64,000 nucleotides of DNA from Azospira restricta. Lineage in GTDB: Bacteria > Pseudomonadota > Gammaproteobacteria > Burkholderiales > Rhodocyclaceae. Positions 4,766 to 40,927 of the stretch are shown piece by piece. Location of the stretch: NCBI RefSeq assembly GCF_016858125.1, contig NZ_CP064781.1, forward strand, positions 2,737,501 through 2,801,500, in the 5' to 3' direction. Made by a program: the position numbers and the translations under genes. The number at the start of each line of letters is the position of its first letter. Position 1 is the first letter of the stretch. The notes beneath the pieces were generated by a model, which did not search any database, was not told the DNA's origin, and worked only from the letters and a program-made list of their open reading frames with translations.

Positions 4766-6406
4766 ATGGGCACCTTATTGGCGCGGATCAGCATCGGCCA
4801 GAAACTCCTCATCGCACCGAGCGCCACCATCGTCCTCATGTTCGGGCTCGCCGTCGCCGCGGTGCTCGGGCTGCGCGCCGAGATGGCCAACCTCGACCAT
4901 CTCTACGACGAGACGCTGCCGCGTACGCGCACCTCGGTCGAGGCGCTCAACGGCCTGCTGCACGCCCAGTCCTCGCTCTACCGGATCCTCTCCGAGGCCT
5001 CGGCGGGATTTGCCGCCGACAAGGTCGAACAGCATGCGCAGGAAATGGTCGCCGGCCTGCATCGCCACGTGACCGCGCTGCAGGCGCTGCTCGCCTCGCC
5101 GTCGCTGGCGGCGCAGGAGCGGCAGGCGATCGAGGCGCTGATCCTGCAGATCGATGCCTACAAGAAGATCGTCGCCGACACCGTCGAGATCGCCGCCGTC
5201 CAGGTGTCGATGGCCACCACCTACATGTCGAAGGCCGAGCAGGAGTTCGACAAGGCGCTGCAGCTCGCGAAGGCCTTCGAGAAGCAGCAGCTGGCGCATA
5301 TCGCGCTCAGCCGCGACGAGGCGAAGAGCGTCGGCAACACCGTCGAGCGCATCATCTGGGCCTGCTGCGCCGGCTCGATCTTCGTCGCGCTGGCACTGAC
5401 GCTGCTCGTCCGCGCCGGCATCGTCAGTTCGCTGCGCGAGATCCGTGCGGTGTTCGCCGAACTGCGCGCCGGCCGCCTGTCGGTGCGCGCGCCGGCGGTC
5501 GGCCGGGACGAGATCGGCGAGAGCGCGGTCGCGCTCAACGACTTCCTGCAGCACCTGCACGCCAGCATCGGCGACATCGGCGCCGCCGCCGAGAAGCTGC
5601 GCGAATCGGCGCAGGAGCTGACCGGCACCTCGCGGCTCGCCGCCGACTCCTCGTCGCAGCAATCGCAGTCGGCCGGCGAGGTGGCGGCGGCGGTGCAGCA
5701 GTCGGTGGCCTCGATCGAGTCGATCAACGATCATGCGGCGGCGCTGATGGCCCGCGCCGAGGAATGCATGTCCTTCGTCCGCGAGGAGGTGCGCGTGCTC
5801 GGCGTAATCACCGCGGAACTCGACGGGGCCAAGGCCTCGTTCGAATCGACCAACCAGGCGGTCACCGACTTCGTCGCCGCCGCCGCGTCGATCAAGGAAT
5901 TCACCCGCGTCGTCAAGGACCTCGCCGAGCAGACCAACCTGCTCGCGCTCAACGCCGCGATCGAGGCCGCCCGTGCCGGCGAGCAGGGACGCGGCTTCGC
6001 CGTCGTCGCCGACGAGGTGAGGAAGCTCGCCGAGCGCTCGGCCGCCGCCGCCAACGACATCGACCGCGTCACCGTCTCGCTCTCCGACCGTTCGGCGCGG
6101 GTCGAGACCACGCTGCGCAAGGGCGAGGTGGCGATCGACGGCTGCGTCGCGCGCATGGGCGAACTGGCGCGGCTGTTCGGCGACACCGAGGTCTCGGTGA
6201 ACCGCACCGGCGACGGCATCCGCGAGATCTCGGCGAGCGTCGAGGAGCAGACGGCGTCGAGCAACGTCGTCGCCGGCGCCGTCGAGCGGATCGCCGAGAT
6301 CTCGGAGCAGGGCCGCGTGATGAGCCAGCGGACGATGGATGTCGCGGCGATGCTGAGCGAGCTCTCGCACGGCGTGAAGACCAGCCTGTCGCGTTTTAGT
6401 GTGTAG
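4766..6406 (+). CDS. methyl-accepting chemotaxis protein
   Basis: 546 residues. Inner-membrane chemoreceptor: TM1 at about 14-36, a mostly helical periplasmic domain of about 160 residues (four-helix-bundle type, matching 4HB_MCP/TarH spacing), TM2 at about 200-222, HAMP to about 270, then the cytoplasmic signalling domain. The invariant hairpin containing [19 protein letters not shown] begins near residue 388. The start ATG has GGAG upstream. It lies 25 bp before the exported Cache protein, with which it may be co-transcribed. No pentapeptide CheR-docking tail is present. Confidence 0.95.
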
Positions 6407-6431
6407 TCCAACCAACCCCAAGGAGAACCAG

Positions 6432-6890
6432 ATGCTGAAAAGAATCGCAGCCGCCGCTTGTCTCGCCGTCGCCTTCATCGGCGCCGTCCAGGCGCAGGAG
6501 CGCGGTACCGAGAACGAAGCCAAGACGATGGTCGAGCAGGCGCTGCAGGCGGTGAAAGCGATGGGGGCCGAGCAGGCCTTCCAGGAGTTCAGCACCCCCG
6601 GCGGCAAGTGGCATGCCAAGGACCTCTACCTGTTCTGCTACAAGCTCGACGGCACCAACACCTGCCACGGCGCGAACAAGGCGCTGATCGGCAAGAACCT
6701 GATCGACCTGCAGACCGCCGACGGCCAGCCGCTGATCAAGAACATGGCCGGCATCGCGAGCGGCAAGGGCAGCGGCTGGATCGAGTACCGCTGGCCGCAT
6801 CCGCAGACCAAGAAGCTCGAGGACAAGAAGGCCTGGGTCGCGAGGATTCCCGGCTACGACGGCTTCCTCGGCGTCGGCGTCTATAAGTAG
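6432..6890 (+). CDS. free-standing periplasmic single-Cache (sCache_2-like) protein
   Basis: 152 residues with an AGGAG site before the ATG. Signal peptide of about 22 residues ending VQA. The mature protein is essentially one Cache sensor domain: KWHAKDLYLFCYKLDG, TCHGANKALIGKNLIDL, GWIEYRWPHPQTKK and the C-terminal GFLGVGVYK all match the sCache_2 pattern. No membrane anchor or output domain is present. Being 25 bp after a chemoreceptor and before a TRAP-type binding protein, it may bind a small carboxylate or amine and present it to a receptor; that is inference. Confidence 0.88.
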   Translation: MLKRIAAAACLAVAFIGAVQAQERGTENEAKTMVEQALQAVKAMGAEQAFQEFSTPGGKWHAKDLYLFCYKLDGTNTCHGANKALIGKNLIDLQTADGQPLIKNMAGIASGKGSGWIEYRWPHPQTKKLEDKKAWVARIPGYDGFLGVGVYK

Positions 6891-6896
6891 GCAAAC

Positions 6897-6929
6897 CCCG
6901 GCCGGGCGCGATCGTAGCGCCCGGCCGGG
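6897..6929 (+). terminator. GC-rich hairpin after the Cache gene
   Basis: Perfect 13-bp inverted repeat CCCGGCCGGGCGC / GCGCCCGGCCGGG with a 7-base loop, starting 6 bases after the stop codon. There is no U tract, so it is either a weak or Rho-assisted terminator or an mRNA 3'-end stabiliser. Confidence 0.6.
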
Positions 6930-6946
6930 AATCGGGACGATTCGAA

Positions 6947-7228
6947 TTGGCCGATAACCTGCGGGCGCAGCTGTCGCTGCTCGCCAGCGCCGAGCCGGCC
7001 GACTATGTCAGCCGGCGCCGCGACCTGGTCGCGGGCTTCATTGCCGCGGTGCCGTCGGCCGAGAGCCGCGACAAACTGCAGCGGCTGCAGCAGTCAGTCG
7101 ATCAGCTGCGTGCGCTCGACGCCTGCAGCGCCCGTTCGCTCCCGGAAATCCTCGACCTGATCCGCCAGTCGCTGCAGGACATCGTCGTCCTCAGCGAGCG
7201 CCTGAAGGCGGAAATGGCCGGCGAATAG
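6947..7228 (+). CDS. small hypothetical helical protein
   Basis: 93 residues from a TTG start, with no strong ribosome site; the next in-frame ATG is far inside. Mostly alpha-helical by composition (repeated LQRLQQSVDQLRAL, ILDLIRQSLQDIVVLSERLK), without cysteines, signal peptide or membrane segment. No family is recognised. It lies between the Cache hairpin and the TRAP-type binding protein, 25 bp upstream of the latter, so it could be the first gene of that transcript. Confidence 0.5.
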   Translation: MADNLRAQLSLLASAEPADYVSRRRDLVAGFIAAVPSAESRDKLQRLQQSVDQLRALDACSARSLPEILDLIRQSLQDIVVLSERLKAEMAGE

Positions 7229-7253
7229 GTCGGCCGCGCAGCTGAAGCAGTCG

Positions 7254-8417
7254 ATGAACAAGGAAACAGATGGAGCCCACGCGGTGACCCGAGGCGCCGA
7301 CAGCATGCCGTCCGCTTTGCCGCCCGATGTCGGGCGGCGGCGTTTTGTCCTGGCCCTTGCGGCCGGTACGCTCGCCGCGCCGGCGGTGGTACGCGCCGGC
7401 GAGGTGCAGACCTTCCGCCTGCAGACCGCGTGGCCGGCGGCCAACCTCTACAACGAGTTCGCCGGCGACTTCGCGCGCAAGGTCGGCGAGATGAGCGGCG
7501 GCCGCCTGCGCATCGACGTGCTGCCGGCCGGCAGCGTCGTTCCGCCCTTCAGCCTGCTCGAGGCGGTGCACAAGGGGATCGTCGACGCGGCGCACAGCGT
7601 TCCCGGCTACTGGTACGGCAAGAACCCGGCCTACGCGCTGTTCGGCAACGGCCCCTCGTTCGGCATGGACGGCAACCTGCTGCTGGCCTGGATCGAACAC
7701 GGCGGCGGCCGCCAGCTCTACGAGGAGCTGCAGCGGACGATGAAGTTCGAGGTGCACGGCATCCTCTACGGGTCGATGCCGACCCAGCCGCTCGGCTGGT
7801 TCAGGAAGGAGCCGAAATCCGACGCCGATTTCCGCCGCCTGCGCTACCGCACCTCCGGGCTGGCGGTGGACATGTACAAGGAGATGGGCGCCGAAGTCCT
7901 GTCGCTGCCGGCCGCCGACATCCGCCAGGCGCTGCAGAGCGGCATCCTCGACGCCGCCGAGTTCGTCGGCGGCACGCCCGACCGCCAGCTGGGGCTGCCC
8001 GAGGTGCTCAAGCTGTGCATGCTGCAGAGTTACCACCAGCCGGCGGAATGCTTCGAACTGCTCCTCAACCGCCGCAAGTTCGAGGCGCTGCCGCCCGAGC
8101 TGAAAGCGATCATCGACAACGCCGCCAGGGCGGCCAGCGCCGAGATGGCCTGGAAAATCGCCCACACCTACTCGCGCGACCACCAGGCGATGCGCGAGGC
8201 GCAGCAGGTGCGCTTCGCGCGCACGCCGCAGTCGATCCTCGAGGCGCAGCTGCGCGCCTGGGACCGCGTGATCCGCAACAAGTCGCAGGACAACCCGCTG
8301 TTTGCGAAGATCATCGACTCGCAGCGCGCGTGGGCGGCGCGCGTCGTCGGCTGGGAGAACGAGGTGGTCGTGCGCAGCGATCTCGCCTATCGCCACTATT
8401 TCGGGAGGACGGCATGA
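7254..8417 (+). CDS. TRAP-type (DctP family) solute-binding protein
   Basis: 387 residues. A long N-region is followed by GRRRFVLALAAG and AAPAVVRA, a twin-arginine-like signal with cleavage near residue 49. The mature part has the DctP-fold landmarks FRLQTAWPA, FARKVGEMSGGRLRIDVLPAG, the conserved Arg region FRRLRYRTSG and LQSGILDAAEF. The family binds organic anions for DctQM permeases, but none is encoded nearby. Instead it is coupled to a small membrane protein and a symporter-kinase fusion, suggesting a sensing rather than a transport role (inference). Confidence 0.92.
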   Translation: MNKETDGAHAVTRGADSMPSALPPDVGRRRFVLALAAGTLAAPAVVRAGEVQTFRLQTAWPAANLYNEFAGDFARKVGEMSGGRLRIDVLPAGSVVPPFSLLEAVHKGIVDAAHSVPGYWYGKNPAYALFGNGPSFGMDGNLLLAWIEHGGGRQLYEELQRTMKFEVHGILYGSMPTQPLGWFRKEPKSDADFRRLRYRTSGLAVDMYKEMGAEVLSLPAADIRQALQSGILDAAEFVGGTPDRQLGLPEVLKLCMLQSYHQPAECFELLLNRRKFEALPPELKAIIDNAARAASAEMAWKIAHTYSRDHQAMREAQQVRFARTPQSILEAQLRAWDRVIRNKSQDNPLFAKIIDSQRAWAARVVGWENEVVVRSDLAYRHYFGRTA

Positions 8418-8443
8418 AGTCGGGCGTCCGGGCGACGGCGTGA
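8414..8443 (+). other. 9-codon minicistron linking two genes by overlapping stop/start codons
   Basis: ATG overlaps the TGA of the binding-protein gene (ATGA), reads nine codons (MKSGVRATA) and ends in TGA, which overlaps the ATG of the next gene (TGATG). GGAGGAC lies just upstream of the first ATG. The arrangement looks built for translational coupling of the binding protein to the small membrane protein; the peptide itself need not be functional. Confidence 0.45.
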
Positions 8444-8652
8444 TGCGCCGCCGCGCCGCCATGCTGACCCAGCGCCTGCTGGCGCACTTCGTGGTCGCGA
8501 TCGTCTTCTACGGCCACTGGCTGACCGGCTATCTCAACGTCGACACGCACCTGCACGGCATCCCGGTCTTCTACGTCGCGCTGTTCCTCTACTGGCTGGG
8601 GTACATCGCGCTGATCTGGCTGATCAACCGCTGCAACCTGCCGCCGTCCTGA
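8443..8652 (+). CDS. small two-helix membrane protein
   Basis: 69 residues with two hydrophobic helices (about 9-28 and 38-60), joined by a short polar turn containing DTHLHG, and a C-terminal RCNLPPS. Start by coupling (TGATG); an internal ATG at 8461 is an alternative. It sits 27 bp before a protein with a sodium:solute-symporter domain. Small two-TM partners such as DUF4212 or YhdT-type proteins accompany some symporters of that superfamily; a similar role is plausible, but no homology can be claimed from the sequence alone. Confidence 0.72.
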   Translation: MRRRAAMLTQRLLAHFVVAIVFYGHWLTGYLNVDTHLHGIPVFYVALFLYWLGYIALIWLINRCNLPPS

Positions 8653-8679
8653 ACGGCGGAACGGAGGCGCTAGGCGAAA

Positions 8680-11600
8680 ATGGATTTTCCCCACCTGATC
8701 CCCGTCGCCGCCGGCGGCTACCTGCTGTTCATCTTCGCCGTCGCCGGCCTGGCCGAAGCCAGCGCGCGGCGGGGGCGCAGCCTGATCGCCAACCCCGTCG
8801 CCTACGCGCTGTCGCTGGCCGTCGTCTATGCCTCGGCGCTGCTCTTCTACGGCGGCGTCGGCGGCGCGGTGAAGAGCGGCGCCGCGGTGATCCCGCTCTA
8901 CCTGGGGCCGGCGCTGATCGCCGCCGCCTGGTGGTTCCTGCAGCGCAAGGTGGTCCACATCGCGCAGAAGTACCGCATCACGTCGATCGGCGACTTCCTC
9001 ACCGTGCGCTACGGCGGCGGCATCGGCTTCGCGGCGCTGGTCAGCCTGGTCGCGCTGATCGGCACCATCCCGCTGTTCGCGCTGCAGCTGAAGGCGGTCG
9101 CCTCGAGCATCGCCGTGCTGCAGCAGTACCCGCTGGTGGTGATGCCGGCCTTCGCTTCCAGCCGGCCGATCCTCTCCGACCCGACCTTCTACACCACGGT
9201 CGTGCTGGCGGTGTTCACCATCGTCTTCGGCATCCGCCACCTCGACGCCAGCGAGCGCCACGAGGGCGTCGTCGCGGTGGTCGCGCTGCAGTCGGCGATC
9301 GTCCTCGTCGCCGCGCTGGCGGCCGGCATCTTCGTCACCTTCTTCATGTACGACGGCTTCCGCGACCTCTTCGACCGCGCCGAGCAACCCAGCCTGATTT
9401 CGCTCGCCGCCGGCGAGATCCCGCGCTGGAACACGCTGATGCTGCTCAGCATCGGCGCGCTGCTACTGGCGCCGCGGCAGTTCCAGATCGCCGCCGTCGA
9501 GAACGTCGACGAGCGCCACCTGCGTGCGTCGTCCACGCTGTTTCCGCTCTACCTGCTGCTGCTGGCGATCTTCGTGCTGCCGGTCACCTTCGCCGGGCTG
9601 GCCAAGCTGCCCGGCGGCGCCATCGACCCGGACATGTTCCTGCTCGCGCTGCCGGTCACCGAAGGGGCGACGACGGTGGCGCTGCTGGTCTTCCTCGGCG
9701 GCCTGTCGGCGGCGACGGCGATGATCGTGGTCGAGGCCATCGCCCTGTCGACGATGTGCTGCAACGGCGTCGCCATGCCGCTGCTGCTCAGGTCGCGGCG
9801 GCTCGCCGGCGCCGGCCACGAAACCTTCACCGCGCTGCTGCTGGCGATCCGCCGCGGCGTCGCGCTGCTGCTGCTCGTTCTCGGCTACCTCTACTATCGC
9901 TACGCCGGCGAGGTGACCTCGATGCTCGCCACCGGCTCGATCTCGCTGGTGGCGATCGCCCAGCTCGGGCCGGCCTTCGTCGGCGCGCTGTTCTGGCCAC
10001 AGGGCTCGCGCAAGGGGGTGCTGGCCGGGATGCTGGCCGGCTTCGCGGTCTGGTGCTATACGCTGTTGCTGCCGTCGCTCGGCCATTCCGGCTGGGATGC
10101 CGCCGCCGCCATGGTCGCCACCGGCCCCTTCGGCATCGACTGGCTGCGCCCGACGCAGCTGTTCGGCGCCGGCAACCTCGACCTGGTCAGCCATGGCGCC
10201 TACACCAGCCTGATCGCCAACCTCGTCGTCTACGTCACGGTGTCGCTGCTGTCGCGGCAGAGCGTCGAGGAGGAAATCCAGGCGGCGCGCTTCTGCGACC
10301 CCTTCGGCGGCGAATCGGCGGTGCGCGCCGAGCGGCTGCTGCGCGGCAAGATTTCGCGCGAGCGGCTGGAGACGATGCTGGCGCGCTTCCTCGGTCCGGC
10401 GCAGGCGCGCGACGCGCTCGCCGCCTACGGCCGCGCGCGCGGCTGGCGCTCGGCGCTGGAAATCCGCCTCGACGCGGACGTCGTCAGCCATTGCGAAAGC
10501 CTGCTCGCCGGGCGGATCGGCAACCTCGCCGCGCGGCTGACGGTCGATGCGGCGATCAGCCGCACCGAACTCGACATGCGCGAGATGCTCGACATCCTCG
10601 ACGAGGTTTCCGACACCATCTCCTACTCGAACGAGTTGGCGCGCAAGCAGAAGGAACTCGAGGAGAAGTCGGCGCAGCTGATGGCCAGCGAGCAGCGCTT
10701 CCGCGATCTCGCCGAATCGGCGTCGGACTGGTTCTGGGAAACCGACGAGGCCTTGCGCCTGGTCTATGTCTCGGAACGCTTCTACGCCGCCAGCGGCCTG
10801 CGCCCGAACGACGTGCTCGGCAAACGGCGCTGGGAGATCGAACGCCGGGACAGCGCGGACCAGACGCTCGCCGAGCGCTGGCAGCGCCATATCGAGCAGC
10901 TGCAGGCGCACCAGCCGTTCCGCAACTTCGTCTACGAGCTGGCGACGCCCGGCGGCAGCATCTCGGTCAGCGTCTCCGGCACCCCCTTCTTCGACGAGGA
11001 AGGGTGCTTCCGCGGCTATCGCGGCACCGGCACCGACGTCTCGCCGCTGATCAACGCGCAGGTGCTGCTGGCGCGCTCGGAGAAGTCCTCGGCGCTCGGT
11101 TATCTGGTCGCCGGCGTCGCCCACGAGCTGAACACCCCGATCGGCAACGGCCTGATCGCCGCCAGCACGCTGATCGACGAGACGCGCAGCTTCGAGGCGA
11201 GCATCGCCGGCGGGCTGCGCCGCTCGGCACTGGAGAAGCACGTGGCGACCGCGCGCAACGCCGGCGAAATCCTGATGCGCTGCCTGAATCGGGTGGCCGA
11301 ACTGATCCGCAGCTTCAAGCGCGTCGCCGAATATGGCGAGACGCTGGAACGCCGGGAGTTCCGCCTGCTGCCGGTGGTCGAGCGCGTGGTCGCGATGCTG
11401 GCGCCGTCGAGCCACCGGGCCTCGGTCACGGTCTCGGTCGACGTCCCCGCCGACCTGATGCTGGCGAGCTATCCGACGCTGATCGAGGACATCCTCGCCA
11501 AGCTGATCCGCAACGCGCTGCTGCACGCCTTCGACGGGCGCGAGGCCGGCCGGGTCTGGGTGGTTGGCCGCGAGCGGGAGGGGGGGCTGGTCAGCCTGCT

Positions 11601-11838
11601 CGTCGCCGACGACGGGATCGGCATTCCCAGCGCGCACCTCGGCCGCATCTTCGATCCCTTTTTCACCACCAAGCTCGGCAGCGGCGAATCGGGGCTGGGG
11701 CTGTGCATCGTCAGCAACGTCGTCGAGAACGTGCTCGGCGGCCGCATCGAGGTGCGCAGCGACCCCGCACGCGGCAGCGAGTTCGAGGCGCGTTTCCCGC
11801 GTATCTCGCCGCCGACGGCGGACGCCGGAGAAGGCTAG
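8680..11838 (+). CDS. sodium:solute symporter - PAS - histidine kinase fusion (CbrA/CrbS-like)
   Basis: 1052 residues. Residues about 1-520 form a polytopic SLC5/SSS symporter-like domain. About 540-660 is a helical linker resembling a STAC module (LLAGRIGNLAARL, REMLDILDEVSD). About 670-790 is a PAS domain (DWFWETDEALRLVYVS). The dimerisation helix carries VAHELNTP with phospho-acceptor His815, and the ATPase domain ends the protein (DDGIGIP, GESGLGLCIVSN). The architecture matches sensor kinases such as CbrA and CrbS, in which transport and signalling are fused. No response-regulator gene lies beside it. Upstream are a periplasmic binding protein and a small membrane protein, probably co-transcribed. 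Confidence 0.93.
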   Translation: MDFPHLIPVAAGGYLLFIFAVAGLAEASARRGRSLIANPVAYALSLAVVYASALLFYGGVGGAVKSGAAVIPLYLGPALIAAAWWFLQRKVVHIAQKYRITSIGDFLTVRYGGGIGFAALVSLVALIGTIPLFALQLKAVASSIAVLQQYPLVVMPAFASSRPILSDPTFYTTVVLAVFTIVFGIRHLDASERHEGVVAVVALQSAIVLVAALAAGIFVTFFMYDGFRDLFDRAEQPSLISLAAGEIPRWNTLMLLSIGALLLAPRQFQIAAVENVDERHLRASSTLFPLYLLLLAIFVLPVTFAGLAKLPGGAIDPDMFLLALPVTEGATTVALLVFLGGLSAATAMIVVEAIALSTMCCNGVAMPLLLRSRRLAGAGHETFTALLLAIRRGVALLLLVLGYLYYRYAGEVTSMLATGSISLVAIAQLGPAFVGALFWPQGSRKGVLAGMLAGFAVWCYTLLLPSLGHSGWDAAAAMVATGPFGIDWLRPTQLFGAGNLDLVSHGAYTSLIANLVVYVTVSLLSRQSVEEEIQAARFCDPFGGESAVRAERLLRGKISRERLETMLARFLGPAQARDALAAYGRARGWRSALEIRLDADVVSHCESLLAGRIGNLAARLTVDAAISRTELDMREMLDILDEVSDTISYSNELARKQKELEEKSAQLMASEQRFRDLAESASDWFWETDEALRLVYVSERFYAASGLRPNDVLGKRRWEIERRDSADQTLAERWQRHIEQLQAHQPFRNFVYELATPGGSISVSVSGTPFFDEEGCFRGYRGTGTDVSPLINAQVLLARSEKSSALGYLVAGVAHELNTPIGNGLIAASTLIDETRSFEASIAGGLRRSALEKHVATARNAGEILMRCLNRVAELIRSFKRVAEYGETLERREFRLLPVVERVVAMLAPSSHRASVTVSVDVPADLMLASYPTLIEDILAKLIRNALLHAFDGREAGRVWVVGREREGGLVSLLVADDGIGIPSAHLGRIFDPFFTTKLGSGESGLGLCIVSNVVENVLGGRIEVRSDPARGSEFEARFPRISPPTADAGEG

Positions 11839-11866: not shown

Positions 11867-13318
11867 CTACCTGCGCCGCTCCGCCAACAGATCGCGCAGG
11901 CTCTTCGCCGCCGGTTTCAGCGGCGTGCGCGAGTCGGTCCAGCCGGCCTGCTTCGCCGGCGTCAGGAAGCGGAAGCGCGTCGCCGTCCAGGCGAACAGCC
12001 GGTACAGCGCCGGGCGGCTGTAGAGGAAGGCGAAGCCCTTGTAGGCCAGCGAGGCAAAGGCGGTCTTGCCGGCGCCCTGGCCGACCAGCGGCGCATGGCC
12101 GGGTTTGGCGTCGTGCGTCGCTTCCTCGCGCAGGCGGATCAGCAGGTCGGGGATCGGGATCTTCACCGGGCAGACCTCGCCGCAGGCGCCACACAGCGTC
12201 GACGCGCCGGGCAGCACGTGCGTCGCCGCCAGCCCCATCATGTGCGGCGAAATGATCTCGCCGATCGGGCCGGGGTAGGTCGTGCCGTAGGCGTGGCCGC
12301 CGATGCGGGTGTAGACCGGGCAGTGGTTCATGCACGCGCCGCAGCGGATGCACTGCAGCGTCTGCCGCATCTGCTCGTCGGCGAAGGCCTGCGTGCGGCC
12401 GTTGTCGACCAGCACCAAGTGCATCTCCTGCGGGCCGTCCTTCTCGCCCGCGCGGCGCGGGCCGGTGATCACGTTGAAGTAGGTGGTGATCGCCTGGCCG
12501 GTGGCCGAGCGGGTGAGTAGGCCGTACAGCGGCACGACGTGCTCCAGCTTCTCGACCACCTTCTCGATGCCGGTGATCGCGATATGCACGTTCGGTACCG
12601 TGGTGCACATGCGGCCGTTGCCTTCGTTCTCGACCAGGCACAGCGTGCCGGTCTCGGCGACGGCGAAGTTCACGCCGGAGAGGCCGACCTCGGCTTCCAT
12701 GAATTTCTTCCGCAGCACGTCACGGCCGATCTGGATCAGCGCGTCGACGTCCTCGGTATAGCTGACGCCGGGCACCTTCTCGGCGAACAGCTCGGCGATC
12801 TGCTGCTTGGTCTTGTGGATCGCCGGCATGATGATGTGCGACGGCTTCTCGCCGGCGAGCTGGACGATGTACTCGCCCATGTCCGACTCCAGCGCGTCGA
12901 TGCCGGCGTCGTGCATCGCGTGGTTCAACTCGACTTCCTCGCTGACCATCGACTTGCCCTTGACCATCAGCTTCGTGTCGTGGCGGCGGCAGATGTCGAG
13001 GATGATCGCGTTCGCCTCGTCCGGCGTTTCCGCCCAGTGCACCTTGACGCCGTTCTTCACGAGATTGGCTTCCAGCTGCTCGAGCAGCTGCGGCAGCCGG
13101 GAGAGGCTGTAGCGGCGGATGTGCTCGGCCAGGCTGCGCTGGCGTTCGAGCAGCTCCGGGTCGGGGAACTGCGCGGCACGCTTCGCCATCAGGAAGTCCA
13201 TCGCGCCGCGGAAGCTCTTCCTGAGGAACGGGTTGGCGACGACCTCGGCGGCGCGGCGCTTGAACTCCGCGCCGGGAACGAACTGCAGGGTGTGCGTGTT
13301 TTGCGTGGTGTGCGACAT
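11867..13318 (-). CDS. lutB: L-lactate utilisation iron-sulfur protein LutB (LldF)
   Basis: 483 residues. An LUD domain (MVKGKSMVSEEVELNHAM, AETGTLCLVENEGNGRM) precedes two 4Fe-4S motifs, CIRCGACMNHCP and CGACGEVCP. It is the electron-carrying core of the LutABC lactate oxidation complex, which converts L-lactate to pyruvate. Its start overlaps the lutC stop by one base. It is the last gene of a lutA-lutC-lutB operon; the order differs from the Bacillus lutABC order. Confidence 0.95.
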   Translation of the reverse strand: MSHTTQNTHTLQFVPGAEFKRRAAEVVANPFLRKSFRGAMDFLMAKRAAQFPDPELLERQRSLAEHIRRYSLSRLPQLLEQLEANLVKNGVKVHWAETPDEANAIILDICRRHDTKLMVKGKSMVSEEVELNHAMHDAGIDALESDMGEYIVQLAGEKPSHIIMPAIHKTKQQIAELFAEKVPGVSYTEDVDALIQIGRDVLRKKFMEAEVGLSGVNFAVAETGTLCLVENEGNGRMCTTVPNVHIAITGIEKVVEKLEHVVPLYGLLTRSATGQAITTYFNVITGPRRAGEKDGPQEMHLVLVDNGRTQAFADEQMRQTLQCIRCGACMNHCPVYTRIGGHAYGTTYPGPIGEIISPHMMGLAATHVLPGASTLCGACGEVCPVKIPIPDLLIRLREEATHDAKPGHAPLVGQGAGKTAFASLAYKGFAFLYSRPALYRLFAWTATRFRFLTPAKQAGWTDSRTPLKPAAKSLRDLLAERRR

Positions 13319-13992
13319 TACAGGGCCTCCCCGGTGAGCAGCAGCACGACCAGTTCCTTCGGCCCGTGCGCGCCGTAGGCCAGCGTCTGCTGGATGTCGG
13401 CGGTCTTCGACGGGCCGGTGACGAGCAGCGCGTTGGTCGGCAGTCCGTCCGTCCACTTCTGCTGCACGATCGCGTCGTAGAGCGTCGGCACGACGCTGTC
13501 TTCGTCGACCAGCGCGATGTGGATCGGCGGCACCAGCGACATCGTGCGCGGTTCACTGGCGTCCGGCCAGACGATCATCGTGCCGGTCTCGGCGATCGCG
13601 CCGCGGGTGCCGGTGATCGCCGCGTCTACGTTCTCGAACAGCGCCTGCTTCCACTCGTCGATCGGGCGGTCGTAGGGCTTCAGGCCCTGAATTCCGGCGG
13701 CTTCCAGCGCCCGGCCGTGCGTCGTCGCCGGCGCGTAGAGCAGGTTGCGGATGCCTTTCGCGGCGACGACTTCCTTGAGCTTGTCGACCCACTGGCCGCG
13801 CGGCACGCGGTGCACCTCGGCGTGCCAGGCGGTGATCTTCTCGGCGAATTCCTGCGCCAGCTGCTCCTTCGGCGTGCGCGGCAGGCTGGCGTAGTGTTCG
13901 GCGATCGCGGCGTCCGGGTTCAGCGGCGCCGGGGCGGTGGTGTGCGTCGCGCCGGCGCGCAGCTTGGCGAGGATGTTGTCGCGGGCGCTCAT
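13318..13992 (-). CDS. lutC: lactate utilisation protein LutC (LUD domain)
   Basis: 224 residues, a single LUD (DUF162) domain: ITGTRGAIAETGTMIVWPD, PPIHIALVDEDSVVPTLYDAI and a TGPSKTADIQQTLAYGAHGP end typical of LutC/YkgG. Part of the L-lactate dehydrogenase complex. Its ATG overlaps the lutA TGA (ATGA) and its stop overlaps the lutB start, so the three genes are translationally coupled. Confidence 0.94.
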   Translation of the reverse strand: MSARDNILAKLRAGATHTTAPAPLNPDAAIAEHYASLPRTPKEQLAQEFAEKITAWHAEVHRVPRGQWVDKLKEVVAAKGIRNLLYAPATTHGRALEAAGIQGLKPYDRPIDEWKQALFENVDAAITGTRGAIAETGTMIVWPDASEPRTMSLVPPIHIALVDEDSVVPTLYDAIVQQKWTDGLPTNALLVTGPSKTADIQQTLAYGAHGPKELVVLLLTGEAL

Positions 13993-14759
13993 CGCTTTTC
14001 TCCCTGCGTCTGCTGCCAGAGGAAGCTGGCCAGGTGCTGGCCGCGGAAGCTGTCGCGGCGCTTTTCGAGTGTCTTGTCGATGTTCATCAGGCAGCCGCCG
14101 TCGGCGGAAACGAACTTCTCGGCGCCGGTCTCCTTCAGCGCGTCGGCCTTGTCGCCGGCCATCGCCGCCGAGATCGCCGGCTGGCGCACGGCGAAGGTGC
14201 CGCCGAAGCCGCAGCATTCCGACTCGTGCGACTGCTGCAGCACCTCGACCCCGGCCAGTTGGCCGAGCAGCTCGCGCGCGTGCAGGTGGGTGCCCATCTC
14301 GCGGCGCGCCGAGCACGAGGTATGCAGCGTCAGCTTCGCCGGCTTGCCGCTGCCCTGCCAGTTCACCTTCAGCACCTTCACGAGGAACTCGGTCAGCTCG
14401 AAGACGCGCTCGGACAGCGCTTCGGCCTTCGCCTTCAGCGTCGCATCCTCGGCGAACAGCTTCGGGTAGTGGTGGCGCATCATGCCGGCGCAGGAGCCGG
14501 ACGGCACGATCACCGGCCAGTCGTTTGGAAAGAGGCCCAGCTGAACCTTCGCCACCGCGCGCGCCTCGTCGGCGTAGCCGCTGGTGTAGGCCGGCTGGCC
14601 GCAGCAGGTCTGGTCCTCGGGGAAGTGCACGCGGATGCCTTCGCGTTCGAGCAGCTGGATCGCATCCATGCCGGCCTCGGGGCAGAACAGGTCGACGAGG
14701 CAGGTGGCGAAGAAATAGACGTCGCCCGGACGTCGTACCTGGGAATAGTCTCGTTCCAT
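13989..14759 (-). CDS. lutA: lactate utilisation protein LutA (CCG-domain, LldE)
   Basis: 256 residues with the two cysteine-rich CCG domains of the GlcF/HdrB type: CCGQPAYTSGY in the first half and ECCGFGGTFAV in the second, plus DVYFFATCLVD near the start. Electron-transfer subunit of the lactate-oxidising LutABC complex. The ATG at 14759 was chosen because GGAG stands 6 bases upstream; an in-frame start 12 codons earlier lacks a site. First gene of the operon, directly downstream of the operator-bearing promoter region. Confidence 0.95.
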   Translation of the reverse strand: MERDYSQVRRPGDVYFFATCLVDLFCPEAGMDAIQLLEREGIRVHFPEDQTCCGQPAYTSGYADEARAVAKVQLGLFPNDWPVIVPSGSCAGMMRHHYPKLFAEDATLKAKAEALSERVFELTEFLVKVLKVNWQGSGKPAKLTLHTSCSARREMGTHLHARELLGQLAGVEVLQQSHESECCGFGGTFAVRQPAISAAMAGDKADALKETGAEKFVSADGGCLMNIDKTLEKRRDSFRGQHLASFLWQQTQGEKR

Positions 14760-14788
14760 CACTTCTCCGTTGTTTGTTGTTGGGTAAG

Positions 14789-14799
14789 TGGTCAAACCA
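14789..14799. promoter_or_regulatory. TGGT-N3-ACCA operator in the lutA leader
   Basis: Sequence TGGTCAAACCA, the core palindrome of FadR/GntR-subfamily regulators such as PdhR and LldR. It lies between the predicted -10 of the lut promoter and the lutA start, where a bound repressor would block transcription. Confidence 0.75.
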
Positions 14800-14897: not shown

Positions 14898-14901
14898 TGC
14901 G

Positions 14902-14912
14902 TGGTCTTACCA
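14902..14912. promoter_or_regulatory. TGGT-N3-ACCA operator before the regulator gene
   Basis: TGGTCTTACCA, followed by AT, so the opposite strand reads ATTGGTAAGACCA, very close to the PdhR/LldR consensus. It covers the expected transcription start of the regulator, suggesting autoregulation together with control of the divergent lut operon. Confidence 0.75.
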
Positions 14913-14933
14913 ATCAGTGCCATTCGATCGCCC

Positions 14934-15713
14934 ATGCCGCAAAACAAGGTTCAGGTCCCGCGCATCTCCGACGCCGTTGCCGCGTCGCTGGAAAAGCGCA
15001 TCCTGGAAGGCTCGCTGAAGCCCGGCGACCGGCTGCCGCCGGAGCGCGAGCTGGCGGCCGAGCTGGGCGTGTCGCGCCCGTCGTTGCGCGAGGCGATCCA
15101 GAAGCTGGCTTCCAAGGGCATGGTACAGAGTCGGCAGGGCGGTGGCACCTATGTCACCAACCGGCTCGAATCGACCTTCTTCGACCCGTGGCAGGACATG
15201 ATGGGTTCGCACCCGAACCTGCGCGAGGACCTGCTCGAATTCCGCCGCATGCTCGAAGGCCAGGCCGCCGAGTGGGCCGCCGAGCGCGCCACCGACGCCG
15301 ACCTGCAGCGGCTGACGCAGGCCTTCGCAGCGATGAATGCCGCCTTCGACGCCGACGACCTCGAGCGCCGCGCCGCCACCGACATCGATTTCCACCAGGC
15401 GATCGGCGAAGCCACGCACAACGCGCTGATCGGCCACCTCTCGGCCGCGCTGCTGCGCCTGATGCAGGACAACATCCGTTTGAACCTCGGCGAACTGAAG
15501 AGCATCCCGGCGGCGATCTCGCTGCTCAAGAGCCAGCACGCGGCGATCCACGCCGCGATCGTCGACCGCAAGCCGGCCGCCGCGCGCGCCGCCGCCGAGA
15601 CGCACATCGACTTCGTCCGCGAATCGCTGGCGCAGTCGCTGCGCTCCGCCGCCCGCCGCGAGACGGCCGAGCGCCGGCTGAACACCGAGTTTTCCGCTTC
15701 CTCCCTCTCCTGA
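14934..15713 (+). CDS. GntR-family (FadR/LldR/PdhR type) transcriptional regulator
   Basis: 259 residues. N-terminal winged helix ([30 protein letters not shown]) and a C-terminal FCD ligand-binding domain with the metal-binding histidine pattern ([31 protein letters not shown]). It diverges from lutACB and faces TGGT-N3-ACCA operators, so the likely effector is lactate or pyruvate. Only 25 bp separate it from ppsA, so it may be co-transcribed with, or control, PEP synthase. Confidence 0.9.
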
Positions 15714-38141: not shown

Positions 38142-40193
38142 ATGATCGAACCCCGCGCGAACGACGACGAATTGCTGCAACTCGCCGCCGAGCGGCATCG
38201 CTACGAGATGCTGCAGGTCGGCCTCGACCTGCTCGACCAGGGGCTGACGGTCTTCGACGAGAACCTGAAGATGGTCGCGTGGAACGACACCTTCCTGCGC
38301 CTCCTGGGTTTCCCGCGCGAGCTGGCCTTCGTCGGCGCCGACTTCGAGAGCTTCATCCGCTACAACGCCGAGCGCGGCGAGTACGGCCCGGGCGACGTCG
38401 ATGCGCTGGTCGCCGAACGGGTGAACGCCGCGCGCCGCTTCAGCTCGCACGTGACCGAGCGCGTCCGCCCCGACGGCCGGATCCTGCTCGCCCGCGGCGA
38501 ACCGCTGCCGCACAAGGGCTTCGTCACGCTGTACACGGACATCACCGAACAGCGCTACATCGACAACCTGCTGCGCCACCAGAACACCGAGCTGGAGGAG
38601 CGCGTCGCCCGCCGCACCGCGCAGCTGGAGAACGCCAACGCGGTGCTGTCGCGGGTGAACGAGGAGAAGACGCAGATCGCCCAGGCGCTGAAGCGCAGCG
38701 AGGAACGCATCCGCCTGATCACCGACACGATCCCGGCGATGATCGGCTACTTCGACAAGGACGAGGTCTTCCGCTACGCCAACCGCGGCTACGCCGACTG
38801 GTTCGGCGTCGCCGTCGAGGCCTTCATCGGCCACACGATCTGCGCGGTGGTCGGCGAGACCGTCTACAACCGCGTCCGCGACAACGTGCGGCTGGCGCTG
38901 ACCGGCCGCCAGGTGACCTACGAGTACCTGATCGAGCGCCAGGGCCGGCCGATGACCGCGCGCAGCACGCTGGTACCGGAGATCGGCGCCGACGGCGAGG
39001 TGCTCGGCTGCTTCGTCTTCGCCTACGACGTGACCGAGCAGAAGCAGATGCAGCTGACGCTGGTGCAGGCGCAGAAGATGGACGCCATCGGCCAGCTCAC
39101 CGGCGGCCTCGCGCACGACTTCAACAACCTGCTGACGGTGGTCATCGGCAACCTCGCCGCGCTGCAGGAGCGGCACGGCGACGACGCCGGCATCCGCGAG
39201 TTCACCGAGCCGGCGCTGCAGTCGGCGCGCCGCGGCGTGCAGCTGATCCGCCGCCTGCAGACCTTCTCGCGGCAGCAGCCGCTGGAGCCGATGGCGGTGG
39301 ACATCGCCCGCCTGGTGGTCGAGCTGACGACGCTGATCGAACGCTCGCTGCCGGAATCGATCGCGATCTCGACCGAGCTCGCCGACACGCCGATGCACTG
39401 CCTGGTCGACCCCGGCCAGCTGGAAAGCGCGCTGCTCAACTTCGCGCTGAATGCGCGCGACGCGATGCCGGACGGCGGGCGGCTGCGCATCGCCGCGGCG
39501 CCGCTGCGGCTTTCCCCGGGGGCGGTGGATACCGCCGAGTTCGGCGTGCCGGCCGGCGACTACATCCGCTTCGAGGTCGCCGACGACGGCTGCGGCATGG
39601 ACGCGGCGACGCTGGCGCGCGCCTTCGAACCCTTCTTCACGACCAAGCAGCTCGGGCTGGGCAGCGGCCTCGGGCTGGCGATGACGCAGGGCTTCGCGCG
39701 CCAGTCCGGCGGCGGCATCCGCATCGCCAGCGCGCCGGGGCAGGGAACGACGGTGCAGCTGGTGCTGCCGCAATGCCAGCCGGAGCTGCCGGCCGCGTCG
39801 CCGGAGGGCGACGGCGCCGCCAGCCAGGCCGGCGACCTGGTGCTGCTGGTCGAGGACGATCCGGCGGTGCGCCGCGTCGTCCGCCAGCAGCTGGTCGGGC
39901 TCGGCTACGCGGTGATCGAGGCCGACAACGGCGCGCAGGCGCTGCAGCTCGCCGACGCGGTGCCCGACATCGCGCTGGTGCTGACCGACATGGTGATGCC
40001 CGGCGGCATCAACGGCCGCCAGCTGATCGAGCTGGTGCGCCAGCGCCGCCCCGGCATCGGCGTCGTGCTGATGAGCGGCTACGCCGAAGGCCTCGGCAAC
40101 CGCGAGGAGCGCACGCTGCGGGTGCTCGACAAGCCGTTTTCGACCCGCGAGCTGGCCGACGCGCTGCAGCGGGCGCTGAAGGAGGATGCATGA
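38142..40193 (+). CDS. soluble hybrid histidine kinase (PAS-PAS-HisKA-HATPase-receiver)
   Basis: 683 residues, no membrane segment. First PAS (about 22-135, GLDLLDQGLTVFDENLKMVAWN) is of the PAS_7 kind found in CrbS/CbrA-type kinases; then a coiled coil (about 145-180) and a second PAS (about 185-300). Phospho-acceptor His325 in GGLAHDFNNLL, ATPase motifs DDGCGMD and GLGSGLGLAM, and a C-terminal receiver with Asp616 in VLTDMVMP. It faces the acetate unit and overlaps the response-regulator gene (ATGA), so it probably senses acetate-linked metabolism from the cytoplasm. Confidence 0.94.
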   Translation: MIEPRANDDELLQLAAERHRYEMLQVGLDLLDQGLTVFDENLKMVAWNDTFLRLLGFPRELAFVGADFESFIRYNAERGEYGPGDVDALVAERVNAARRFSSHVTERVRPDGRILLARGEPLPHKGFVTLYTDITEQRYIDNLLRHQNTELEERVARRTAQLENANAVLSRVNEEKTQIAQALKRSEERIRLITDTIPAMIGYFDKDEVFRYANRGYADWFGVAVEAFIGHTICAVVGETVYNRVRDNVRLALTGRQVTYEYLIERQGRPMTARSTLVPEIGADGEVLGCFVFAYDVTEQKQMQLTLVQAQKMDAIGQLTGGLAHDFNNLLTVVIGNLAALQERHGDDAGIREFTEPALQSARRGVQLIRRLQTFSRQQPLEPMAVDIARLVVELTTLIERSLPESIAISTELADTPMHCLVDPGQLESALLNFALNARDAMPDGGRLRIAAAPLRLSPGAVDTAEFGVPAGDYIRFEVADDGCGMDAATLARAFEPFFTTKQLGLGSGLGLAMTQGFARQSGGGIRIASAPGQGTTVQLVLPQCQPELPAASPEGDGAASQAGDLVLLVEDDPAVRRVVRQQLVGLGYAVIEADNGAQALQLADAVPDIALVLTDMVMPGGINGRQLIELVRQRRPGIGVVLMSGYAEGLGNREERTLRVLDKPFSTRELADALQRALKEDA

Positions 40194-40927
40194 GGAACGC
40201 GGGCGAGACGGCGGACGGGGCGAAGCTGGTCGCGCTGGTCGAGGACGACCCGGACGTCGCCCGCATCATCGAGAAGACGCTCGCCGACTTTGCGTTCGCG
40301 ACCGTCTGGTGTCGCAGCGGCGGCGAGATGCTGCGCCGGCTGCCGAAGCTCCTGCCGGACCTGTGCATCATCGACCTCGGCCTGCCCGACATGGACGGGC
40401 TGGAGCTGATGCGCCGACTGCGCGAGACCTCGCCCTGCGGCATTCTGATCCTGACCGGCCGCGGCGATGTCAGCGACCGTGTGATGGGGCTCGAGCTCGG
40501 CGCCGACGACTACGTGCTGAAGCCCTTCGAGCCGCGCGAGCTGGTCGCCCGCGTGCGCAGCGTGCTGCGCCGGCGCGAGGCGGCGCCCGGCCCGGCGGGC
40601 GGCGGGCAGGCGAGCGTCGCCGAGTTCGCCGGCTGGCGCTTCAACCTCGGCAACAACACGCTGGTCTCGCCGGCGGGAGTCGAGGAATTGCTCAGCACAT
40701 CGGAAGCGGAACTGCTCAAGGTCTTCGTCGGCAACCCCAACCGCATCCTGCAGCGCGAGCAGCTGATGGGGCAGCGCGACCTGTCGCCGACCGACCGCAC
40801 GATCGACGTGCGCATCTCGCGGCTGCGCCGCAAGCTCGAGCCGGACCCGCAGAACCCGGTGCTGATCAAGACGGTGTACGGCGCCGGCTACCTGTTCCTG
40901 GCGACGGTGAGCTGGTCGGGCGGCTGA
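40190..40927 (+). CDS. OmpR-family response regulator
   Basis: 245 residues. Receiver domain with Asp62 in IIDLGLPDMDG and Lys in VLKPFEPREL, and a winged-helix Trans_reg_C domain (LLSTSEAELLKVFVGNPNRI, TIDVRISRLRRKLE, VYGAGYLF). Overlaps the kinase gene by four bases. The likely targets are the divergent CoA-transferase/actP unit and its own promoter. Confidence 0.95.
   Translation: MRNAGETADGAKLVALVEDDPDVARIIEKTLADFAFATVWCRSGGEMLRRLPKLLPDLCIIDLGLPDMDGLELMRRLRETSPCGILILTGRGDVSDRVMGLELGADDYVLKPFEPRELVARVRSVLRRREAAPGPAGGGQASVAEFAGWRFNLGNNTLVSPAGVEELLSTSEAELLKVFVGNPNRILQREQLMGQRDLSPTDRTIDVRISRLRRKLEPDPQNPVLIKTVYGAGYLFLATVSWSGG

Follow-up and report, generated by a model that had tools for sequence, protein, structure and literature searches.

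An SLC5-type sensor kinase with an altered transporter pocket beside a TRAP-type binding protein in Azospira restricta

A 64,000-nucleotide stretch of the Azospira restricta genome (contig NZ_CP064781.1, positions 2,737,501 to 2,801,500 of the forward strand; hereafter the window, numbered from its first letter) carries at 4766–11838 six genes in one direction, the last three of which encode a DctP-type binding protein of the TRAP transporter family, a two-helix membrane protein and a histidine kinase fused to a symporter-like SLC5 domain. The parts are of known kinds; what is new is their combination, together with the loss of the transporter pocket of the SLC5 domain in the same two species. 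At just short of an even chance, we favor the reading that a CbrA-type transceptor has been converted to a receptor fed by a binding protein, with DctP, the small protein and the kinase forming one sensory unit. The initial annotation had described these three proteins, with neither DctQM permease genes nor a response regulator gene in the cluster, and all of this was borne out.

Loss of the CbrA-type pocket in the SLC5 domain

The kinase gene (8680–11838, plus strand) encodes 1052 aa comprising an SLC5 domain (aa ~1–540), four STAC-like helices (aa 560–625), a PAS domain (~672–790) and a DHp/HATPase core (797–1041). PAS and HATPase_c (E 4.7e-20) were matched, HisKA stayed below its cut-off, and an H-box, HELNTP, was read in the sequence. 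No Pfam SSF match was obtained for the N-terminal half at E 0.1; residues 8–577 match the solved chain 10ed_A, which we take to be CbrA, with E 1.3e-59. The AlphaFold model of this half (predicted local distance difference test, pLDDT, of 82.3) aligns with SLC5 transporters with Z scores of up to 30.9; 10ed was not among the structure rows for this model (library to 2026-04-08). The helices that follow are predicted at 560–571, 573–587, 599–613 and 615–625 and have residues conserved with relatives; no STAC model was matched there, and the structure rows scarcely pass residue 551.

In CbrA, as described in the accessible part of a recent study, K196 fills the Na2 site, W55, F406 and other residues line the histidine pocket, and F71 forms a lid above it (PMC13022988). 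SLC5 domains were gathered by similarity to the window, and 83 unique frames were reduced to 64 by removing near-copies within longer ones; five of the sequences (L021, L022, L023, L025, and L029) run up to the locus end only, with the kinase part outside. In the alignment of the window domain with the 63 others and CbrA, W55, F71, K196, and F406 are replaced by L, V, V, and L both in the window and in its ortholog from one other species of the same genus (genome G398). The proton-coupling lysine is therefore lost, the position being V208 in the window kinase and V in the second species; W55 corresponds to L54 of the window kinase. All of the other 62 domains keep this lysine, and 61 of them keep all four residues, the exception (29% identical) retaining K and F71. 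The conserved E192, one turn before the coupling position, is Q in the window.

Conservation of 95% or more among the other 62 domains is seen at 134 columns. The window departs from 30 of these, and the departures affect six of nine pocket columns as against 24 of the 125 other conserved columns (one-sided p=0.004). A distant sequence, L195, breaks 43 conserved columns and keeps the lysine. S52, Y50, and Y74, which correspond to CbrA S53, Y51, and Y75, are retained in the window. Judged by these residues, the domain looks unable to work like that of CbrA, and we infer that transport has been lost. Sodium coupling in place of proton coupling was also considered; the coupling position lacks an acidic side chain and Q replaces E192, and the idea is kept only within the transport alternative discussed below. 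Since the fold is predicted to be intact and the ratio of non-synonymous to synonymous substitution rates (dN/dS) of the SLC5 part is 0.16 between the two species, the domain appears to be kept for something.

The DctP-like binding protein

The DctP gene lies upstream at 7305–8417 on the plus strand (Pfam DctP, E 1.1e-26), and its product is a DctP/TakP-like binding protein with a probable twin-arginine (Tat) signal. The open reading frame (ORF) extends from 7254; the start codon may instead be the ATG at 7305, which lies a few codons upstream of the Tat-like GRRRF. Among the features of a TRAP transporter, a DctP-type binding protein of the TakP/lactate group is present and the Q and M genes are not with it; no DctQM genes were found within the cluster, and all DctM matches of the genome lie outside it. 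The placement of a DctP gene beside an SLC5-kinase is the unusual and new part of the cluster.

The predicted fold (pLDDT 88.5) has 2-oxoacid or Ca-lactate binders in its 11 top rows (Z 36.5–43.4), the next row falling to 32.2. TakP is reported, in the portion of the source that is available, to bind sodium-pyruvate via Y100, Q156, R177, E214, the W215 main chain, and E240 (PMC1839085). The window protein has YQREFQ at these positions, its pocket arginine being residue 199 when counted from 7254. The same set occurs in 56 of 60 distinct relatives that were collected, and agreement by position amounts to 57, 57, 60, 60, 59, and 56 of the 60. By this comparison the protein retains the metal/carboxylate pocket positions of its family, and together with the modeled fold it looks able to bind a ligand.

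Of these relatives, 51 adjoin DctQM permeases (L062, L064, and L163 were set as permease-adjacent at 744–1102 nt), eight have none within the flank, and one is the G398 ortholog with the kinase. For the eight, wider regions were checked for L072, L080, and L142, and a flank of about 1.5 kb or less for the rest (158 nt for L157). Three lone proteins, L080, L086, and L157, have a pocket altered to FEREFM and no permease in the flank, and are possibly further orphan binding proteins. In the DctP tree the sister group of the window protein is poorly supported (0.775 for a grouping with three lone DctPs, 0.286 at a deeper node), so that no claim is made on the TRAP transporter from which the window protein came.

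The small protein as companion of SLC5-kinases

Between the two genes, 8443–8652 (plus strand) encodes a two-helix membrane protein of 69 aa. A search of 300 genomes of the order with this protein returned 30 loci, of which 25, the window included, have an adjacent SLC5 frame; the other five look like chance matches. In 20 wider regions (18 chosen for SLC5 presence and two from the source genome), the SLC5 frame always continues into a kinase, and a receiver gene follows directly 3' in 17, is absent in two and falls beyond a contig edge in one. For the standard SLC5-kinases of the order (L041–L060), the downstream receiver is sometimes a frame of 124–129 aa (L049, L050, and L053), that is, a stand-alone CheY-like protein not of the CbrB/CrbR type.

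The available part of the CbrA study states that Pseudomonas CbrX, a two-helix peptide, co-purifies with the SLC5 domain of CbrA (PMC13022988). A small protein with an SLC5-kinase is thus an ordinary pair, as CbrX with CbrA, and the novelty that had been seen in it is not there. When 18 small proteins were combined into a profile and the PDB copy was searched with it at E 10, no CbrX chain was matched, though this copy may contain none; common ancestry with CbrX is therefore only a possibility. The protein was also considered as a symporter subunit of the DUF4212 or DUF485 kind; no Pfam or NCBIfam match was obtained at E 0.1, and a CbrX-like companion is preferred.

Joint conservation and narrow distribution

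Searches covered 300 genomes of the order, 150 of the family, and seven of the genus for DctP, and 150 and 395 of the family and 399 of the order for the kinase; these samples overlap and are partial. Orthologs of the kinase were found in two of 395 family genomes and one of 399 order genomes, and of DctP in two of the seven genus genomes, three of the five without it being less than 90% complete. Among contigs of GTDB, none of the best 80 loci out of at least 577 relatives has DctP beside an SLC5-kinase.

G398 keeps the order MCP (methyl-accepting chemotaxis protein), sCache protein, 93-codon ORF, DctP, small protein, and kinase, with lut and FadR genes beyond. Compared with G398, the MCP is 91% identical with dN/dS 0.11, the sCache protein has the lowest dN/dS of the cluster (0.075), DctP, the small protein, the SLC5 part, and the kinase part range from 0.16 to 0.29, and the 93-aa protein stands at 66% identity and 0.41. 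The arrangement is lineage-specific, but since a second species has the entire cluster and the lut genes in unchanged order, it is more than a chance of a single genome. The expectation of a gene order conserved across relatives thus holds gene for gene in that species, where the genes evolve under purifying selection, and fails for the family at large.

Kinase half and possible output

The histidine kinase half is 30% identical to that of the standard SLC5-kinase of the source genome (L042), as against 44% to a G398 SLC5-kinase whose gene overlaps one for a REC-DUF3369-HD-GYP protein. Its DHp-CA part shares 47% identity with the corresponding part of a multi-PAS kinase from the source genome whose gene overlaps one for a REC-DUF3369-GGDEF-EAL protein (L280, 6403–11803), the closest core among the own-genome regions examined. 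By these identities, the kinase half stems from a different lineage than the standard SLC5-kinase of the genome. Matches of the kinase to NCBIfam models such as AtoS and EspC were far under the cut-offs and were not used. In G398, locus L186 (5902–11582) holds an SLC5-PAS-PAS-kinase overlapping a REC-DUF3369-HD-GYP gene; it is apparently wired to cyclic di-GMP (c-di-GMP), and no small companion was found at a threshold that missed others too.

No receiver gene lies near the window kinase: 116 REC matches (E 0.001) were obtained across the 3.98-Mb genome, and the closest, at 2777340 (window 39840), stands at a distance of about 28 kb. The region concerned, window 38142–40558, encodes a PAS hybrid kinase with a C-terminal receiver (39840–40166) and a second receiver in another frame (40229–40558). 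Among 20 non-SLC5 loci with a similar kinase half (L194 and L196–L214; a 1.5-kb neighborhood), six have a REC-HD-GYP neighbor, two more a DUF3369-type REC, four another REC, and eight, some of them at contig ends, none, the domains being confirmed for L194, L203, and L209. Both REC-DUF3369 proteins followed up in the source genome, at 1541401–1542840 and 2622674–2623594, already adjoin a kinase, and a partnership with the window kinase would therefore be cross-talk.

Gene neighbors, ligand class, and the TRAP permease of the genome

The kinase stop is separated by 28 bp from convergent lut genes on the minus strand (11867–14795), namely lutB from 11867, lutC with a LUD domain within the ORF 13318–14316, and lutA at 13989–14795. 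Beyond them, divergent from lutA, lies a gene for a GntR/FCD regulator resembling PdhR and LldR (14901–15713, plus strand). The lut genes are the best hint to the ligand; lutA and lutB also occur within 6 kb of related DctP-DctQM genes in five of 30 wider contexts. The source genome has its own DctP-DctQM set at 3424791–3428555, adjoining genes for glycerate kinase, glyoxylate reductase, and tartronate-semialdehyde reductase, and no PF02652 lactate permease was found in the genome. Given the lut genes beside the cluster and related DctPs and the glycerate and glyoxylate genes beside the paralog, the ligand is probably a small 2-hydroxy or 2-oxo acid, with lactate favored by the gene neighbors.

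TRAP permease genes elsewhere in the genome, if co-expressed with this binding protein, had been named as a counter-test of the sensor idea. The genome does encode a TRAP permease, with its own DctP, which is 51% identical to the orphan, and to that extent the counter-test tells against the idea.

Layout of the remaining cluster

The first gene of the cluster encodes the MCP (4766–6406, plus strand; HAMP and MCPsignal matched, a 4HB-like domain below cut-off) and is followed by one for a free-standing periplasmic sCache_2 protein (6432–6890, plus strand; Pfam E 3.9e-20), as had been proposed. The top NCBIfam model of the latter is MctS, a monocarboxylate sensor kinase, with a score far under its cut-off. 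A secreted stand-alone sCache protein directly 3' of a chemoreceptor with a 4HB-like domain may serve that receptor as a binding-protein-like adaptor. The five genes listed by the initial annotation are real, and a sixth had been overlooked: a 93-codon ORF with a TTG start at 6947–7228 (plus strand), similar to DUF3135 (22.0 bits against a cut-off of 22.7).

A GC hairpin lies between the sCache gene and this ORF (6898–6928, plus strand; fold with a perfect 12-bp stem, a loop of 7, and no T run), and G398 has a different hairpin at the same spot. The terminator scan did not report it; it could be a partial terminator or a processing site. A sigma-70 promoter scan found none. The genes for DctP, the small protein, and the kinase had been described as coupled by overlapping codons. 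The real gaps are 25 nt from the DctP stop to the small-protein start and 27 nt from the small-protein stop to the kinase start, and overlap arises only through a 9-codon frame bridging DctP and the small gene (ATGA at 8414–8417, TGATG at 8441–8445). In G398 the gap is about 49 nt, there is no ATG at the DctP stop, and the 9-codon frame is absent.

Proposed mechanism and alternatives

In the favored reading, DctP would bind, in the periplasm and together with a metal ion, a small monocarboxylate of the 2-hydroxy or 2-oxo type, lactate being the likeliest. Closed and loaded, it would dock to the SLC5 domain from the periplasmic side, with the CbrX-like hairpin keeping it in place. The domain, no longer a proton-coupled transporter of the CbrA kind, would act as a conformational receptor and relay the signal by way of the STAC-like helices and the PAS domain to the kinase. 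The kinase would in turn phosphorylate a receiver from another locus, perhaps a c-di-GMP enzyme of the REC-DUF3369 kind. The ligand, the docking of DctP and its contact with the kinase, the loss of transport, and the partner regulator are what we infer, and the whole reading hangs on the direct contact. A binding-protein-gated sensor, as the initial annotation had it, remains the best reading; the loss of the lysine and three pocket aromatics weakens the idea that a carboxylate is delivered to the symporter-like domain, so that a conformational signal upon docking fits better than substrate hand-over. The fuller version, in which a pocket-less transceptor has outsourced recognition to a TRAP-type binding protein, its SLC5 domain serves as docking receptor, and a swapped-in kinase half feeds c-di-GMP rather than transcription and so ties lactate to behavior, is held tentatively, as more probably wrong than right.

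Several observations weigh against this reading. The arrangement was found in two species only. The pocket enrichment falls to p=0.036–0.044 once two sites at which CbrA itself deviates are dropped. The SLC5 domain offers no extra periplasmic segment as a dock, having only the single-residue insertions V48 and D473 and a loop about six residues shorter near aa 234–242. Eight of the 60 DctP relatives likewise lack an adjacent permease and have no kinase, and the genome carries a TRAP permease with a DctP 51% identical to the orphan. A DUF3369-type or HD-GYP receiver occurs within 1.5 kb in just eight of the 20 similar-kinase loci, so that c-di-GMP output is a lead only. From the accessible parts of the sources, CbrA without its SLC5 domain can still activate a target when highly expressed (PMC7918813), and growth on histidine is independent of CbrX (PMC13022988); signals may therefore be cytoplasmic.

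This last point also serves an explanation by neighborhood, in which the MCP, the sCache protein, DctP, the kinase, and the lut genes form a lactate regulon but each act alone, and the kinase senses a cytoplasmic cue via PAS. The dispensability of the SLC5 domain at high expression, the narrow distribution, the differing DctP-small gene spacing in the two species, and the hairpin between the sCache gene and the 93-codon ORF agree with it. The DctP-family gene in the RpuS/R expression table of Sinorhizobium fredii, in the part of that paper available, fits co-regulation as well as sensing (PMC9100948). However, the genes for DctP, the small protein, and the kinase adjoin one another in the same direction and have been retained jointly at low dN/dS, and the loss of the SLC5 pocket coincides with the gain of DctP, which leaves this explanation with a small chance of being right. 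Another possibility is that DctP serves the distant permease at 3424791–3428555 as an additional binding protein and shares only regulation with the kinase. The permease is present with a cognate DctP of 51% identity, the pocket signature of the orphan is identical to that of permease-linked DctPs, and the genome lacks PF02652; on the other hand, the permease directly follows its own DctP beside glycerate/glyoxylate genes, and this explanation does not account for why the same lineage lost its SLC5 pocket. We know of no cross-use between such distant DctP-permease pairs and consider this improbable.

It is likewise unlikely that DctP hands its ligand to an SLC5 domain that still transports, with changed specificity and coupling, a smaller aliphatic pocket and no lysine for proton coupling, while the kinase reads the transport. 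The predicted intact fold, the retained S52, Y50, and Y74, and the strong purifying selection on SLC5 would suit such a transporter, and the aromatic-to-aliphatic changes could accommodate a C3 acid, whereas V208 provides neither a lysine nor an acidic residue, E192 has become Q, and no SLC5 member fed by a binding protein was found described in the portions of the literature available.

Relation to known systems and implications

The favored sensory unit resembles CbrX-CbrA/CbrB of Pseudomonas in having a two-helix gene directly upstream and SLC5, STAC-like helices, PAS, and kinase in one chain, and differs from it in the lost coupling lysine and pocket aromatics, the DctP gene upstream, the missing adjacent response regulator, and the other kinase lineage. 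CrbS/R (acetate) and RpuS/R (pyruvate) are SLC5-STAC kinases tied to the use of small monocarboxylates (PMC9100948), to which the window kinase, with its SLC5 domain and STAC-like helices, would be comparable; those systems have LuxR-type regulators nearby, and the available part of the paper does not mention a binding-protein gene beside the kinase. The same portion lists a DctP-family TRAP binding protein, NGR_RS09255, among expression-changed genes linked to RpuS/R in S. fredii (PMC9100948), a hint of a wider link between SLC5-kinases and DctP. DctP itself shares its predicted fold (2hzl, Z 42.8; 2zzv, Z 38.6) and carboxylate/metal pocket positions with TakP and TTHA0766, binders of 2-oxoacids and Ca-lactate; unlike TakP, which works with TakQ and TakM, it has no Q and M genes and is followed by a kinase.

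In BctC-BctE and other sensor kinases activated by such proteins, a transporter-type binding protein is the input of a membrane kinase (PMC9602780), the role proposed here for DctP. In the accessible part of that source, BctC belongs to the TTT family and acts on a periplasmic sensor domain, whereas in the window the binding protein is of the TRAP family and its candidate partner is a multi-helix SLC5 domain to which no periplasmic domain has been added. In the open-licence PMC literature, no paper on an orphan DctP plus a sensor kinase was found, and the available texts, including the accessible part of PMC8648760, describe neither a binding protein coupled to an SLC5-STAC kinase nor a tie between a TRAP binding protein and an SLC5 receptor.

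Whether CbrA is triggered by transport or binding in its SLC5 domain, by a cytoplasmic cue, or by both is stated to be unclear in the available part of the CbrA study (PMC13022988). A natural CbrA relative with a stripped pocket, a domain under selection, and a gained binding-protein gene provides a ready-made split of transport from signaling. If the favored reading is true, a transporter-like sensor would have turned into a pure receptor, dropping its own pocket in favor of a separate lactate-type binding protein alongside lactate-use genes; in the fuller, less probable version, periplasmic lactate would also be linked to behavior through c-di-GMP.

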